64,000 bases of DNA from Isoetes taiwanensis (taxonomy: Eukaryota; Streptophyta; Lycopodiopsida; Isoetales; Isoetaceae), in the NCBI GenBank assembly GCA_021234155.1, contig JAJEKV010000148.1:1332289-1396288 (forward strand). The letters are read 5' to 3'. The notes below the pieces were generated by a model, which did no database searches, had not been told where the DNA came from, and saw only the letters and a program-made list of their open reading frames with translations. This document shows, piece by piece, positions 12,805-20,046 of the stretch (position 1 is its first letter; each line of letters starts with the position of its first letter). The position numbers and the translations under genes were made by a program.

Positions 12805-12932
12805 GAATCGCATCGATCCGAGCCATCGGATCGCCATTCTGGGGAGGGACGAGCCACTATATCAGGCTCTTTCCCCTTCCGCACCGGTTATCGGCGTCTT
12901 CTCACAGCAGCTTCCTTCCTTCTCCAAGCTTC
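12805..12932 (+). repeat. Split direct repeat block A1
   Basis: The block starts GAATCGCATCGATCCGAGCC and contains CTTTCCCCTTCCGCACCGG and the tract CAGCAGCTTCCTTCC. It matches 18,043-18,171 over its whole length, with a handful of substitutions and one 1-base indel. Confidence 0.85.
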
Positions 12933-13030
12933 AATCCTCCTTTGTCAATTCTTGTTCCCAATTACCTCAGCAGCTTCCTTCCTTCTCCGAGCTTCAATCC
13001 TCCTTTGTCAATTCTTGTTCCCAATGACCT
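12905..13030 (+). repeat. 63-bp tandem duplication at the end of A1
   Basis: The 63-bp block beginning CAGCAGCTTCCTTCC is duplicated head to tail with about two differences. The A2 copy lacks this duplication, so it arose after the A repeats formed or was restricted to A1. Confidence 0.85.
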
Positions 13031-14109
13031 AATCGTCCTTCACTTCCTTCCCGATGAATCCACCTAATGCGGTCTGTTCATCATAGATCCAGTATTTCAA
13101 CTCCTTTCCGGTGCATCCACCATAATGCGGTAGGTTCATCAGTTTTTAGATGTCTTCCGCCATGTTTCGCAATACTCTGCTGGTTTTCTGCATGTTGTTA
13201 TAGCGATCCTTGGCAAGGTATGACGTATGGCTTTCTTCCCGATTTGCAAGGTATGCGGTATGGCTTTTTCCGTTTACGATGCATGCCAATAGTGAGGTCT
13301 GATTTCTCAAAAGGTTGCATGCTCATAGTCCTATTCCATGGAGGGAGATCGGCGAAATCTGAACTCGATTGTTTTGGGGTTGATTTTGCATGATATGGAT
13401 TTTACTTTCGATGCTATTTTGGCAAATTCTTTTGGTCCCCATTTTTTGTGCATTGGGGTTGCAATTTTTGTTGTCCAGAATCTCTGGCCAGTCGGTTCTG
13501 GTTCTACAGGGGGCATCCCTTTTATCCCTGGTTTGTTCGTGGGGCCTTCCTCCAAGCGTGACCTTTGCTTTCGGCACTATTAATTCACTTATGCGGGAAC
13601 TTAGCCAACATGCGGTGGCCCACATGCAAGGGATCGGTCTTTTTCGTTTTCCCTCAAGCTTTATTGAGACGGGGCCGGAGCTCTATTTCTTTGCATTTTG
13701 TGATTCCACAATGGTCTCGGGATTATGCTCGTTTTTGGTTTCTTGTAAAATGTGATGCAATTTCAGTTGTAGCTGCATTGGATTTGGGCAATCTTCTAAC
13801 CACGACCCAATTAAATCTTGGTTATTCTTTGCTTTATGTTTCTCTCTGTTCCTCCAAGTCCTCGATTGGGCTTAGTCACGGCTCCAATTTGGCTCTATTA
13901 AGTGGTTATTTTATTTGACTTCTTCTTTACCTCTTGATTCGACTCTTGGCTCCATGGAATCAATTTGACGCAATCAGCTCCCCGGCATTGTCTTGAATCC
14001 ATTGTTTTTAGTGCACCTTTTGGCCTTGTATTTCTTACGGATATTACCTTAACCCTCTTGGCATCCGGGACAAATCGTGTTTTGCCATTTGGATTCTTGT
14101 TTTCCACAT

Positions 14110-14300
14110 AGCATCAGGGCCGGATCCGGCTTCCTCCTTTTTTGGCTTGCCTCTGTATCAAACGTAGCCCGCCGGCTTGTTGGAAGCCCCCGCCCACTGG
14201 CGGGCCACGTGGACCAGCGGGGCCATCTGCCGGCTAGATCCGGTGACCGGGTCTAACCGGGCCGCCCGCCCGCCCGTTCACCCTCAGGGGGGAACGGATG
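14110..14300 (+). other. GC-rich island inside the YR element
   Basis: This segment rich in CCCGCC and CCGG (for example GGGCCGCCCGCCCGCCCG) contrasts with the T/C-rich surroundings. It might be a nested insertion or a promoter-like CpG-rich segment. No coding sequence was recognised here. Confidence 0.4.
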
Positions 14301-15459
14301 GGAGCATCCCGATTTAAAGGGTGCTCACCTTTTACACCCCATGGTTTTATATACCATTATCTAATTTTGCTATACATTGCCTTGTTAACTCCTTGGCGGG
14401 ACGTCGATCTTAACCCCATCCGCTTATTTTCAACCCGTAACCCGGCCACGTTCTACCCTAGTCTACTAGGTTGTTTATACGCGACCGAATTTAGTTGGAA
14501 CACGGTCTTGCCTCATACTAACCGGCTAATCTTTGCCCCATAAGATGCACCGGTATTAATTTTTTTTTTTCTGAGCCCTAGGGTCCTCGGGCATACATTT
14601 GTGGTTTTATGGTCCTAGTTCCTTACTCATCCAGGTAACTTAATGTCGGCTTATTGTTCTGTTTTCGTTATTCTTTTTATTTATGACTATTTCATGTTTT
14701 GATGCTAACCTTTGTTACAATGTTCTTCTTCTCAATTCTTTGCTAGGGTATATGCTATGGTTTTGCAATTTGGTTACCACGGTTTTGCCGTGATTACGGG
14801 TTTTCCATTTCCACGGTTTGTTATTTCGTTTTTTAATGTTGAGACTTACAATGTTAGGAGCAGCCATATTTTGGTTTTCACGTTCATCGTTTTTGAAAGG
14901 TTGTTAAATCTTTGCTTGTTTGATACCTTAAGCGGCGAGTTACGCTATTTGCGAGTTTTCTAGTTGCATTTGGCTTTGTTGATGAATTTTATTTGCTAAC
15001 ACTATGTCACTATGTTTTCATTTTCATTTGGCATATCCCTTCCCCTTTTTACTTTATGTTCGGGGATCATGTATGTGAATTGGATTAGGGGTGTTCCATT
15101 CCCAATTTTAAGCTATTTCCTTCCTTTATCCACCTTCACTTGGGTGTCCTTTTTTTTCTCGATGTTGTTTCTTCATATGTTAGCATTCCGGTCATGTATA
15201 TCTTGAATTCCATTTCTTCATCTCTACTTATGTTTGCATTTGCCTTTTCTAAGCATTATCTCTTGGTGCACTTGGTCATGGTCTTGAGTTTTTGTGTCGT
15301 CTTATCATTCACATTTTGCTTATTGGAATCCCCGATTCTATTAAGCTACTCATGTGACCCCTTTCTATTTGAGCCTCTTACGCTTCTCTCCGTTGATTTT
15401 CTATTTTGCAACCCTTTGTTTCTCAACCCATTCCGTTAATGCATCGTTATTTCCAGGCC

Positions 15460-15690
15460 ATGCATTATGGCCCTAGCTTTATTTATACTACGTCTCCGTC
15501 ATTGTATTTTCATTTGTCCTTTTCTCCTATATGGCTCACCCCTTGCACTCCACCCTGACCTAGTCACTCGGACCCCATTTTCTCCGTTTCCTTGGCCATA
15601 ATCTCACCTTTGATTACTTAAGTCTCATTTTTGCTCGATTTCCTGTGTTTCACCTTAACCTTCATCTCCATTTCCATCTTAATTTGCTCT
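15460..15690 (+). repeat. Internal direct repeat, copy 1 (pairs with 16,485-16,690)
   Basis: It shares TATGGCCCTAGCTTTATTTAT, the block TCATTGTATTTTCATTT, and ACCTTAATCTTCAT-like endings with the segment 1.03 kb downstream. Similarity is imperfect, with several indels, so the duplication is old. Confidence 0.65.
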
Positions 15691-16484
15691 TGTGCACCCT
15701 CACTCTCTTATTCCTGTTCCAAACTATTGCTCAGCTCTTATGACTCTCTTTGCTAGGGGCAACCCAGTCCTATTTGGCACCTTGTAGTCCGCCTTTGACA
15801 TTCTTCTCTTTGCCATGTTTTTTTGCACTTTGTCCTGTTTGCATTTGAGCGCTCTTTTACAACTTATTTATCCTTTGAAGCATATTCACCTCATTGGTTT
15901 AGACTTCATGTCGTATTTTCATGTCGCTCGTGCTCCGTGATTGCTTGATTTCCCTTCTGTCCCCTTGCCGATGCTTGCCTCTTGCCATTTAGACTGCTGG
16001 ACTTCAGACGTTGGTATACTTTGTTTTTATTCTCTGGTTTAGGGCATATTTTTAAGTCGGTCCTTATGCATTTGACATCTTGAAAATGGCATTAGAGGTT
16101 ACATTGGAGTTGTTTTTTGGGCAAATTGCATTTACGACATTGTTGGGTCTCTTATTTGTGTACTTATTCACACCTGGTGTCTAGTTTCCTATTGGGTTTT
16201 TATATTTTGGCGTTGTTCCTTCATGTAACCTATTTTGCTAGACGGCAAATTTCTACTTATCACGGTTTTTTCTTCCACCCGCTGGGTGACGCTTTTTCTC
16301 CACCTTCCGGCTTGCCGCTTCCCCGTCATGCATATTCGTTCAGCCTTCTCCTTAGGCGTTCTTTTATATTTTACTTTTCAACAGACGTTCTTCTTTTCTA
16401 ACATGTTCCTTCCGCTAGTCCTTGTCTTTTTTGTTCCTTTATCATGTCCACTACTGTGTTTTTGCTTGAGTATCTCAGACCCTC

Positions 16485-16690
16485 CATATGGCCCTAGCTT
16501 TATTTATAATCCGTCACTTTACCTAGTCATTGTATTTTCATTTATCCCTCTCTACTATCTTGCTTACCTCCTTGCACCCCATCTTGACCTTAGCAGTTTT
16601 GACCCTGATCTTCTTCTTTTTGGCTATAACCTCGCTTTTGACTACTTCACCCTCTTTAACATTAACCTTAATCTTCATTTCTGATTAATT
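16485..16690 (+). repeat. Internal direct repeat, copy 2
   Basis: Second copy of the 15,460-15,690 segment, in the same orientation and about 1.03 kb away. It lies just upstream of the recombinase region. Confidence 0.65.
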
Positions 16691-16854
16691 TTAGTTGGCT
16701 CGATTTATGTTGATTTACATTAACCTTCACCTTAATTTTTCCTCTTAACCTTGCTCTTGTTTGTTCTAACATGTCTACAACCTCTTTCATATTCATTCCT
16801 TCTTTTGCGTTATAATAGCGGACCATATGTGTGGCACTAGCTTTAGTACTGATA

Positions 16855-16955
16855 TGTCGCGGGGTTCCACATGATTTCGAGCTCGAGCTCGATGTTTTGG
16901 CGATCCTCTTCTTCTCACTCTCATTTGAGTGCTGCCATTGACCCGACATGTAGCT
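16855..16955 (+). repeat. Degraded second copy of the YR C-terminal end
   Basis: GCGGGGTTCCACATGAT, then TCCTCTTCTTCTCACTCTC and TGACCCG, match 17,866-17,950 in the same order about 1.0 kb downstream. Translation gives AGFHMI ... WRSSSSHS, paralleling the AGFYMM ... WRSSSSHS of the main copy. Confidence 0.6.
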
Positions 16956-16959
16956 CTTT

Positions 16960-17960
16960 ATGTTTTTCAAAAAATCTTTTGGGATGTTCTTTGTCAATTT
17001 GATTGAATTTAACATGGTTTTATATGTTGTTGTGTACACCCGGTTTGCCTCTCGATTACTTGCTCCTCGGGGAGGTCCCTTTGTTCCCTCGACTTTGCTT
17101 TTTGGTGTTTTCATGGCGCCCCTCTACTCTTCGACTTACATGGCTTTGTTCCGCGCTTTGTTGTTTGGTGCAGCCTCCATGCGTTTCTTATCTCCGGCTT
17201 CCCCCTTTGTTGTTGCCGCCTTTTTTGCCACTCTTCATTATTCTCATCTGTCGCCCTCGTCCATTACTTCGGCCTCTGCTGCAATATCCTTTTTTCATCA
17301 AGTTTTCAACTTGCCCTCCCCCGCTGTTCTTCCTTTACCATCCTTGGCTCGTCAGTCTACTTCTCGTGGAGCTCGTCCCCCTCGCACCGTGCTTCACCTC
17401 ATGCCTCAACATGTTCGCTCTATTGTTCTCCATTTTGCGCCACCCGCGGCCCCGTTCCCTTCTTTGGCCCGTGCTGCCCTCATCGTCCTTTCTTTTGCCG
17501 TTTTTTTACGCATCTCACGGGGCTCGCTCTTAACTGGCGTGATCTTTCTTTTTCGTTTATCGCATGTTGACATTTTTATCCGCCCGTTCCAAAGCGCGAT
17601 CAACTTGCCAGCGGTCATCACGGGTTCTTTAGCCCGTTTGACCGGCTTCACATGCCCGTCACTATTCTTCAGCGTTTGATCTCCACGGTTCTTACCATCT
17701 CCTCGATCCTCCGACAGTTCGCTCCTCCCCCTCTTCTTTGCGCCCTTTATCCTATTCGACTACCCGCTTATGGTGGAGGGATTGCCTTTTGGCTATAGGC
17801 TTGGACCCGTCTCTTTATAGTGCGCATTGCGCTTTCGTGTGGCGGCGGGGCCAAATTTGCCGCTTTCGCGGGGTTCTACATGATGCGGCTTCGTGCTCCG
17901 CGACGCTGGCGTTCCTCTTCTTCTCACTCTCGCTTCGTTGCCCGTGACCCGTCTCAACAT
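16960..17960 (+). pseudogene. Tyrosine recombinase (YR) of the split-repeat element
   Basis: The plus-strand frame from about 17,180 reads like a YR core-binding (SAM-like) domain: SPSSITSASAAISFFHQVFN, then LPSPAV and RGARPPR. The catalytic domain follows with ARAALIVLSFAVFLRIS, where the Arg near 17,509 corresponds to the box I Arg. After a frameshift, PLSYSTTRLWWRDCLLAIGL and DPSLYSAHC give the HxxR-type box (His at 17,825; the Arg spacing is disturbed). After another shift comes AAFAGFYMM ... RRWRSSSSHSRFVARDPSQ, the AG...GRW...Y region. The nucleophile position is Phe (TTC at 17,934-17,936) where Tyr is expected. It would cut and rejoin DNA through a 3'-phosphotyrosyl link; this copy is dead. 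A degraded duplicate of its end lies near 16,850-16,950. Confidence 0.8.
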
Positions 17961-18012
17961 TGGGGTGTCCCCGCGGTTGGGCTTGTAGTTAGGAAGTTCT
18001 CACGGTAGTCGG

Positions 18013-18042
18013 CGGTTTTGTGTCTATTGCGAGTTCCTTCCC
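18013..18042 (+). repeat. Split direct repeat block B1
   Basis: Thirty bases beginning CGGTTTTGTGTCTATTGC, repeated at 19,053-19,082 with two mismatches. The block abuts A2 with no spacer. Confidence 0.8.
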
Positions 18043-18171
18043 GAATCGCATCGATCCGAGCCATCGGATCGCCATTACAAGGGAGGGGCGAGCCACTATA
18101 TCGAGCTCTTTCCCCTTCCGCACCGGTTATCGGCGTCTTCTCACAGCAGCTTCCTTCCTTCTCCGAGCTTC
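18043..18171 (+). repeat. Split direct repeat block A2
   Basis: Second copy of block A, starting GAATCGCATCGATCCGAGCC at the B1 junction. It diverges from A1 just after GAGCTTC. Confidence 0.85.
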
Positions 18172-18286
18172 CCTCCCTTCCCCCACCTTTCGGGGGACCG
18201 CGTCTGTTTCATGTTGTTCACTTTGCATTTACTATAATAATGTTTTTTGCGTCACTATCATGTCATTTGTCATATGTTGTTTTTAT

Positions 18287-18475
18287 TTCCACCTTGAGGG
18301 TGATGCTATTGATTTCCACCTTGAGGGTGATGCTATTTTTTCCACCTTGAGGGTGATGCTATTTTTTTCCACCTTGAGGGTGATGCTATTTTTTCCACCT
18401 TGAGGGTGATGCTATTTATTTCCACCTTGAGGGTGACGCATACTTAATTTCCACCCGCTGGGTGATGCTTTTTCC
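18287..18475 (+). repeat. Tandem array of about 27-bp units (CCACCTTGAGGGTGATGCT)
   Basis: Six copies of CCACCTTGAGGGTGATGCT or its GACGC variant lie between 18,289 and 18,441, followed by a diverged seventh (CACCCGCTGGGTGATGCT). The same diverged form occurs at about 16,275 inside the element. Each unit has a small inverted core. Confidence 0.9.
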
Positions 18476-18681
18476 CCTTCTGGATGCTGATTTTATTTTG
18501 CTCTTCTTTGCAGGGGTTGATTGTGCGGCTTGCCTTGTCCATGCCATGCATGTTAGTTCCTTCTAACCATTTACGGGTATTTTTGGGGTTCTTTTGAGCT
18601 GCTGCAGGTTTTTTGCGGTCGTTTGGGGGTCCTGCTTTTTCGACTCCGCCATCGACATGTCTCCTTCGTCTCTCCGGCGTC

Positions 18682-18846
18682 CGCCATCTTCTGGGGTCTT
18701 GCTAGATTGGTGTTCGCCAGCACATCATCTTTTTCGGTTCTCCAGGCAACACATTCGGGGCTTCTGCCGTCCTCTAGGGTCTTGCTATTTTTGGGTTCGC
18801 CGTCCCTCCATCTTCTTCGGTTTTCCAGGCATCACATTCAAGGTTG
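18682..18846 (+). repeat. About 83-bp tandem duplication
   Basis: The blocks TAGGGTCTTGCTA/TGGGGTCTTGCTA, TTCGCC, TTTTCGGTTCTCCAGGCA and ACACATTC recur in the same order about 83 bp apart. Confidence 0.7.
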
Positions 18847-19052
18847 TTGGCGACCATTTCTCATTAGGGTTTTCCTCGAAAACTCGAGAGGGCGGGGTTT
18901 TTTTATCCCGGTGAGAAGTTGTCGCCATTACCCTTCTATGTTGCATGTGCACATTTCTTTTATGGGGTAGTCCGATATTGTTCCTATGGTCGGCTACCTC
19001 TCTATTCTTCAAACCATTGTATACTGCTGCTGTGATGAATGACAAGCCGGCC

Positions 19053-19082
19053 GGTTTTGTGTCTATTGCAAGTCCCTTCCCA
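19053..19082 (+). repeat. Split direct repeat block B2, right end of the YR element
   Basis: Second copy of block B (two mismatches to B1), followed at once by GAAT, the four bases that open block A. Confidence 0.75.
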
Positions 19083-20046
19083 GAATGAGGCTTAGTAGTA
19101 AAAATGTTGCTCAAGTTGAAACATTTTCCCCCAACAGGTTGAAATAATACAAACCATGAAGCATGAACTCAAGAGCCAAATCCAATTCTAGAAAAGGAAC
19201 AGCAAAATGTACCAACCCAGAAGCAAGCTTCAATGACTTGCTGCACTCCAAAAGAAAGCATCTAGGTCTATGAACACTTGACTTTAGCTTTCAATAAACT
19301 AATTAGAAGATAGAAAACCATAAACAATTACTATAAAAAGCCAAAAGGCTGTATAGGCATAAAGAAGTGAAAGCCATCCATTTCATTTGCTATCCTACCT
19401 CACCTTATCTTCCTCCAAGCATGCCTGGACTCTGAGCCAATATCGTGTTTGACTTCAAACAATGAGTATAATGACGACCATGTTCGAAACAAATCTTGCC
19501 CTCAACTTGATCTTGCAAAAGAAAGAAAGAACCTGATCAACCTATCTTGCTCTAAAAGAAAGAACTAATTTGTCAAGGAAATAGCAAAATGCTGGAGCTA
19601 GTTCAAAATATTGAATTCTAGTATTATTAGATCTATAATACAAAGCACGGATAAATAAATCTCATCTTAGATTCTCGCCCCAACAAAGCCAGTTGACTGA
19701 AACCGATAAGCTAAGGCAGATTAAACAGGGTAATTTGAACTGGATGCAGCCTGCAATAGATACATCAAAGACAAATTGCTATCTTAAATGTCTTACATCT
19801 AACAGATAAAGTGATGCCATACTTTAATAAAAAAAAAAACTTGTACATCTATGCAAGACCCATTCAAGACATAAAAAAATGGAAATGAGCATTGAGAATG
19901 AATAAACTAACTGTCAATAACCGAGCAATTTCATCAATTTATAACTACCAAAAGCTGACAGTCTTGCATGCTAAGGAACTTTTAATCTCTGTTGCAAAGA
20001 AATATTTTAAGGGAAGAAGTAGATTGAGTTAAAGCTTGTTTTATAC
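19083..20046. other. AT-rich DNA, no gene seen
   Basis: No coding or structured feature could be supported. Confidence 0.5.

Follow-up and report, generated by a model that had tools for sequence, protein, structure and literature searches.

A decayed non-autonomous element of Isoetes taiwanensis as a probable member of a PAT-like tyrosine-recombinase retrotransposon family

PAT-like elements (Pat1, Toc and Kangaroo) carry split direct repeats and combine a tyrosine recombinase (YR) with reverse transcriptase (RT), RNase H and methyltransferase (MT) domains. The hosts named in the accessible text of two studies are nematodes, other animals and chlorophyte algae (PMC3266345, PMC4157794), and in the 274-genome survey, as far as its accessible text goes, the PAT-like families came from chlorophytes and animals, and DIRS1-like elements were undetected in streptophytes (PMC3266345). 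Here we describe an element of this layout in a land plant, the lycophyte Isoetes taiwanensis. It lies in a 64,000-nucleotide stretch of contig JAJEKV010000148.1 (positions 1,332,289 to 1,396,288, forward strand; assembly GCA_021234155.1), called the window below, and we read it, with a probability of about 0.9, as a decayed non-autonomous member of a multi-lineage family of PAT-like (order DIRS) YR retrotransposons. A first-pass annotation of the window, which as a whole is partly supported, had suggested a land-plant YR retroelement with split direct repeats; the copies sharing that layout bear this out, while its comparison with flowering plants needs correcting, the host being a lycophyte.

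The Isoetes family resembles Pat1 in the zinc knuckle of its Gag, a feature given for Pat1 in the accessible text of PMC4157794, and resembles the echinoderm form of Pat1 in having internal repeats downstream of the YR; the latter likeness is our reading, the accessible part of the source saying only that the placement differs from that of the nematode form. Toc of algae is alike in belonging to the green lineage and in its split direct repeats, but it is without a zinc finger according to the accessible text of PMC4157794, whereas a zinc knuckle is present in the Isoetes family. Ngaro and VIPER also have split direct repeats with the internal pair downstream of the YR, and differ in having no MT domain (PMC4157794, accessible text). 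KnitGypsy-Dnmt3 from the charophyte Klebsormidium nitens is another streptophyte retroelement, whose repeats are said, in the available part of its description, to be DIRS-structured; it contains Gypsy domains and Dnmt3, whereas the Isoetes family has DIRS-type RT-RNase H and a tyrosine recombinase.

Two records count against novelty: PMC4157794, in its accessible text, speaks of Dirs1-like elements occurring in Viridiplantae and uses as outgroups three plants that this text does not name, and a repeat table for the fern Ceratopteris, in the part available, lists 361 "DIRS" fragments amounting to 45 kb. The literature searched yielded no record of PAT or DIRS elements from Isoetes, and "DIRS" is absent from the available main texts of two Isoetes genome papers (one of them PMC8566536), whose supplements may list repeats. 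Nor did that literature, with supplementary tables and subscription papers outside its scope, describe an autonomous-looking family of PAT-like elements from any land plant. The Isoetes family, with its several diverse lineages, shows that such elements exist in streptophytes. Judged by the identity of their repeats A1 and A2 and by their open frames, some lineages may have been active recently, and the family offers material for testing how such elements integrate.

Copies with fixed ends in the genome

In the window element, a direct repeat A stands at the left end (A1) and again internally (A2), and a short direct repeat B stands directly before A2 (B1) and at the right end (B2). A1 and A2 are 94.6% identical over 129 columns, and B1 (18,013-18,042) and B2 (19,052-19,081) are 93% identical over 30 bp. 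The first-pass annotation had placed the A blocks at 12,805 and 18,043, B1 at 18,013 and B1 against A2 (18,042/18,043), all of which stand; its start of B2, at 19,053, was one base late. Six inverted pairs in the region (18-32 nt, 70-83% identity) include no terminal one. The terminal blocks A and B are direct, not inverted, and membership among DIRS1-like elements was rejected on this ground.

The genome searched comprises 1,658,258,908 bases in 1,110 contigs. It holds at least 41 matches to block A (40 of 1,803 candidates scored) and at least 40 matches to the 3' recombinase region (40 of 629 candidates scored), so the A/B pattern is not due to chance. Ten other copies (L001-L010), on contigs of 7-30 Mb, were fetched for comparison, and the order A1...B1A2...B2 is kept in 8 of these 10 (L001-L003, L005-L008 and L010). 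L004 has no B2 within the stretch fetched. In L009, positions 595-2464 in element sense contain A2 and the tail, then an inverted tail and an inverted A2/B1, after which come Gag, RT and YR and then B1 at the right flank; a circularly permuted copy was rejected because of the inverted tail, and L009 is called rearranged only.

Homology among the copies begins at the CGC of A1 and ends after CCCAGAAT of B2, and the element limits of 12,809 and 19,086 were set by 23 distinct left ends together with the right ends of copies. When the end of B2 is joined to the start of A1, the resulting sequence CCCAGAATCGCATCG is that of the internal B1A2 junction. Among right ends fetched separately, 16 of 20 have exact CCCAGAAT; one of these (L047) leads directly into another A, and the right flank of a further one (L046) equals that of L006. 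The genome search thus returned copies with the same ends, not copies ending elsewhere than at A1 and B2, and the blocks did not prove to be an ordinary satellite unrelated to the recombinase.

Coding relatives and the class of the family

Relatives with the same ends encode what the window copy lacks. L001 has an open frame of 665 residues with an RVT_1 match (E-value 4e-14) and weak RNase H matches, and a zinc-knuckle motif, CSFCGRSRHTAENC, was read by eye in its Gag-like frame. L007 has a recombinase frame of 331 residues, of which 330 were scanned, matching Phage_integrase at 3.8e-8. Throughout the genome there are at least 58 matches to PF00589 (148 of 246 candidates scored) and at least 77 to the 665-residue protein (67 of 9,455 candidates scored). 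The latter include a second lineage with about 55% identity in the RT frame and the same element layout. Its member L016 carries an RT frame of 677 residues, a recombinase of 326 residues and a zinc-knuckle frame, with the motif CTFCGRGNHSIERC read by eye and a weak Pfam match (zf-CCHC_5, E-value 0.2); its A1 and A2 are identical in 169 of 171 columns, and its B repeats are 42 bp long. Phage_integrase is matched at 6.8e-10 by the YR of L016 and at 1.4e-9 by that of L017. The catalytic motif of tyrosine recombinases is R, HxxR, H/W and Y; read by eye, it is present in the relatives and broken in the window copy.

Eleven RT frames, chosen for being open, were aligned; L077, with a longest frame of 343 residues, was fetched with them and then dropped. 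RVT_1 is found in 11 of 11, RT_RNaseH_2 in 10 of 11 and Dam in 9 of 11 at E-values up to 10, and the stretch 3' of RNase H is strongly conserved between lineages. Nonsynonymous divergence (dN) is below synonymous divergence (dS) in 55 of 55 pairs, with finite ratios of 0.05-0.22 and with dS at saturation for over half of these pairs, which indicates purifying selection on the predicted RT-RNase H-methyltransferase-like open reading frame (ORF). A scan of bacterial genomes brought up L084, a DIRS1-like element that looks complete and lies within a bacterial bin (JAJDDB010000011.1, which carries the label Phycisphaerales bacterium); it is probably eukaryotic contamination of that bin. L084 has inverted terminal repeats, in contrast to the split direct repeats of Isoetes, and its RT, RNase H and methyltransferase-like domain align with those of L016 (28% identity, E-value 1e-66, 624 columns). 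Its region homologous to the methyltransferase-like domain matches Dam at 1.1e-5 (25.6 bits, cut-off 28.1), so that a Dam-like domain after RNase H is supported by homology to L084 and not by the cut-off. In IMG/VR, the RT alignment found no relative.

The split direct repeats and the methyltransferase-like domain together argue for a PAT-like element rather than for Ngaro or VIPER. An element of Ngaro or VIPER type, with the same split repeats, B1A2 downstream of the YR and no methyltransferase domain, would fit the layout, which PAT, Ngaro and VIPER have in common according to the accessible text of PMC4157794, and it would fit Dam matches that are all below threshold and missing in L001. 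The stretch after RNase H is nevertheless conserved between lineages, with Dam in 9 of the 11 frames, and aligns with the Dam-matching domain of L084; membership in Ngaro/VIPER was therefore rejected, and we hold it to be improbable. The first-pass annotation had taken the A1...B1A2...B2 order as a hallmark of Ngaro, VIPER and PAT together; the layout stands, and the methyltransferase-like domain points to PAT among the three.

Several points weigh against the PAT-like assignment or its details. The 665-residue frame of L001 has no Dam match at E-values up to 10, the best Dam match among the 11 frames reaches an E-value of 0.0054, and that of L016 reaches 0.12 (12.5 bits, cut-off 28.1). Relative to the other ten RT frames, that of L076 is out of frame over an inner stretch. 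The class is assigned by repeat layout and domains, and the element is known from genomic sequence. In addition, the likeness of A1 and A2 within copies, given below, partly reflects subfamily ancestry, and L005, L006 and L010 enter that comparison with misregistered or mutated starts that add differences.

As the annotation had it, a degraded tyrosine recombinase lies upstream of B1 (about 17,008-17,969). It matches the L007 YR frame in two pieces with 62% and 39% identity (tblastn) and reads SRFVARD where relatives have SRYVLRD, and the catalytic tyrosine is therefore lost. A tblastn search of the window copy with the L001 frames found neither RT nor Gag (E-value 1e-3), and Pfam returned nothing relevant for the nine long frames scanned. 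The window copy thus reads as non-autonomous, having neither RT nor a working recombinase, and presumably was mobilised in trans. Toc1 is an RT-less element.

The annotation had offered, as its other choice, a YR element without reverse transcriptase. This holds for the window copy and its subfamily only, since relatives sharing the A and B blocks code for RT, RNase H and the methyltransferase-like domain. A Crypton-like DNA transposon with a YR and no RT, which would have reached the same end structure independently, agrees with the absence of RT in the window copy and with the YR frames of 261 and 330 residues kept by the subfamily members L005 and L006. Against it, the RT-bearing L001, L007, L009 and L010 match the window copy at 84-86% identity over YR, B1A2 and tail. 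Moreover, dN/dS of the subfamily YR is 0.77-0.94 among L005, L006 and L008, and frameshifts bias these values towards 1; clear selection on this YR was rejected, and the recombinase looks like a decaying passenger under relaxed constraint. Crypton membership was rejected because RT-bearing copies share the same ends, and we consider it very improbable.

According to the available part of the source, ALOG plant developmental regulators are proposed to originate from the recombinase of a DIRS-type element. The YRs of L007 (E-values up to 10), L016 and L017 (E-values up to 1) give no ALOG match, and the seven places in the genome that do match ALOG are all absent from the scored YR list. An ALOG-type DIRS element was thus rejected, and the Isoetes family is not the ALOG donor type. 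A different YR family is represented by L015:2167-3399 (-) and L018:1314-2564 (+), with 411 and 417 residues and Phage_integrase matches of 6e-8 and 1e-7, which is not of PAT type; several similar frames are in the PF00589 match list. These frames resemble Crypton-derived proteins.

Insertion sites and the hairpin at the B1A2 junction

AAT stands directly before CGC, or a mutated form of it, in 18 of 23 distinct left ends. For this count, L021 and L023 (equal to L024) and L027 (equal to L035) were removed as duplicates, and L036-L038, A-tail copies without interior or of unclear kind, were included. The joined flanks of L008 find a Copia-like empty site, gapless with 214 of 215 bases, at two places on the same contig, and those of L005 find a LINE-like empty site, gapless over 211 bases at 97, 96 and 95% identity; Copia and LINE are our reading of the frames in the targets. 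For the window insertion, a paralogous empty site matches at 92% over positions 37-218 of the joined-flank query, with the junction at 109 (letters not inspected). These sites show that insertion is precise and adjoins AAT. That contamination or misassembly produced the pattern is a negligible prospect, for although the plant was grown non-axenically and its genome authors removed non-plant contigs (PMC8566536, accessible text), the ten fetched copies sit on contigs of 7-30 Mb and two of them in Copia and LINE copies present empty elsewhere in the same genome.

The ends are polarised. In 13 copies with both ends read, the left octamer is the element's own in none; on the right, nine copies have CCCAGAAT, one has CCCAGAAC, two (L002 and L003) repeat the left (target) octamer and one is unclear. 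The element's CCCAG occurs in 0 of 23 distinct left ends and in 10 of the 13 right ends. L003 has the target octamer CACATAAT where CCCAGAAT is expected, and its empty paralogue L104 holds CACATAAT once, so the octamer of L003 is an 8-bp duplication. The right end of L002 resembles that of L003, yet its joined-flank query found no empty site.

For the PAT-like element, the following course of transposition may be proposed. RNA would start at the TATA-like motif in A, and the internal B1A2 would serve in reverse transcription as the template on which the B2 and A1 ends are rejoined, so that A1 and A2 would be copied from one another. Over ten copies, A1 and A2 of one copy are indeed closer to each other than to those of different copies (a mean of 3.5 differing columns within a copy and 5.5 between copies; 0 of 20,000 permutations as low). 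The bases 3' of TATAT differ among copies and are the same in A1 and A2 in 9 of 10 copies compared; in the window copy, A2 diverges from A1 beyond the first base. The product with the B-A junction would be the intermediate, which the recombinase would insert next to AAT with exchange at AAT|CGC, so that the inserted element would begin with A1 and finish with B2. The window copy would have passed through these steps with proteins supplied in trans.

As single-stranded DNA, the B1A2 junction forms a hairpin of two stems: the outer one has up to 15 pairs, with the crossover point AAT|CGC at its inner end, and is set apart by a short unpaired spacer from the inner one, which is closed by a loop of four. 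Folding z-scores are -3.65 (L007), -5.47 (L016) and -8.48 (L017), with 0 of 200 shuffles as stable in each of these three copies from two lineages, and -0.90 for the decayed hairpin of the window copy. The junction folds better than either integrated end in 6 of 6 first-lineage copies tested, the window copy included. The sequence of the inner stem differs between lineages while the stem itself is kept. A third lineage, L087, has a hairpin with a different inner stem, which is outside the covariation count given below. L085 has a shortened junction, and in the 1.2-kb pieces L088, L095, L096, L097 and L100 our scripts recognised no such junction.

Covariation of the outer stem between lineages was scored on alignment A4, with 11 distinct junctions, which is fitted to the structure, as its stretches were cut to begin and end at the stem arms. 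In the outer stem, 89.1% of cells are paired and 18 cells are changed on both sides, neither reached in 500 shuffles, and the covariation score of 0.337 was likewise reached by 0 of 500 and compares with 0.150 at most when the stem is slid. Changes on both sides affect 5 of 15 pairs, a number equalled by 165 of 500 shuffles, and the 10 further pair types are equalled by 478 of 500. Related rows may exceed shuffles without any structure, and the independent events behind the covariation are few, mainly the first lineage, its subgroup L091/L093 and the second lineage. L087 was omitted from A4 because of a MAFFT misalignment in A2, L092 is one column out, and L094 was seen and not used. No support came from an earlier alignment (A3) in which the lineages were misregistered: it had a single pair with changes on both sides, and its 68% of paired cells fell short of the +1 slide. 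Such a hairpin is not mentioned for PAT-like elements in the accessible text of PMC3266345 and PMC4157794.

What the hairpin does may be explained in two ways, both compatible with the PAT-like reading. We think it probable, without great confidence, that it serves a step of the RNA or of reverse transcription, or that it is an inverted pair of double-stranded recombinase-binding sites: covariation would preserve an inverted repeat in duplex DNA and a hairpin in RNA or DNA alike, and the junction falls within the presumed transcript. Two observations speak against this: the crossover falls at the inner end of a single outer arm instead of midway between two arms, and the outcome at the ends is polarised. 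They favour a second, more doubtful explanation, in which the B-A junction of the cDNA would be a folded single-stranded recombination site in a eukaryotic retrotransposon, with one strand exchanged at AAT|CGC with the AAT target and the product resolved by replication. This explanation stays tentative because inverted duplex sites or a role in RNA would give the same covariation. Also, an exchange limited to the AAT of a duplex would explain the polarity of most ends without a single strand; the octamer duplication argues for an overlap longer than AAT in at least L003.

Integron cassettes and CTX phage are inserted through folded single-stranded sites and resolved by replication. Their sites, attC and attP, share with the Isoetes junction a two-stem hairpin with an unpaired spacer, a crossover placed at the outer stem's inner end, target identity over about three bases and a one-sided outcome. 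They differ in being bacterial, and no descent is claimed; single-strand use is only our supposition for Isoetes. Whether the integrating intermediate is a duplex circle or a folded strand can be tested directly, thanks to the covarying hairpin at the crossover.

Anatomy of the window copy and minor forms

Table 1. Features of the element in the window (positions counted from the first base of the window)
Feature	Position	Strand	Remarks
Whole element, non-autonomous and probably PAT-like	12809..19086	+	6,278 bp; CGC of A1 to last base of CCCAGAAT; limits common to other copies
Target trinucleotide AAT, left junction	12806..12808	+	
Block A1	12805..12932	+	first 4 bases are target/core
Perfect inverted repeat CGATCCGA-GCCA-TCGGATCG within A1	12814..12833	+	inner stem of junction hairpin; equalled by 13 of 5,000 simple shuffles
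TATA-like motif in A1	12858..12863	+	from A1/A2 alignment; putative promoter
Interior without RT or Gag match	12933..16980	+	common to RT-less subfamily (L002, L005, L006, L008), not L001 or L010
Decayed tyrosine recombinase	17008..17969	+	frameshifted; Phe at catalytic Tyr position; tblastn with L007 YR
Block B1	18013..18042	+	repeat comparison
Block A2, adjoining B1	18043..18171	+	repeat comparison
B1/A2 junction, decayed form of conserved hairpin	18031..18088	+	folding z-score, see text
Tandem repeats of 26-27 bp, tail between A2 and B2	18275..18440	+	repeat comparison
Block B2 and terminal octamer CCCAGAAT	19052..19086	+	repeat comparison, right ends of copies

The window interior is roughly 88-95% identical in long pieces to the interiors of L002, L005, L006 and L008, and shares only scattered matches of up to 39 bp with L001 or L010. 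A third interior type is common to L003 and L004. The A1 of L028, L031-L034 and L039 continues into differing sequences, so several further non-autonomous interiors are suggested, and in L082 and L083 there is merely other sequence following A.

Some copies have unusual ends. L021, L023 and L024 (G000:C1019, about 19.61-19.65 Mb) have a common left flank and were therefore probably duplicated along with their surroundings. L006, as fetched, has at its left end (570-791) a partial A of 58 bp, then B and then a full A; this short junction repeat perhaps came from a template jump. A2-type blocks stand beside the flank in L036-L038. No permuted copies are claimed from them, because L081, fetched with L038, is a solo A-tail-B2, and L079 and L080 have no B2 in the piece fetched. 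L081, in which A-tail-B2 lies between flanks without an interior, is a counterpart of the solo long terminal repeat.

A strand bias was also seen in the window element (12,806-19,087) and in L001, L003 and L010: the sense strand contains 14-18% A and 37-40% T, while the flanks contain 26-36% A.

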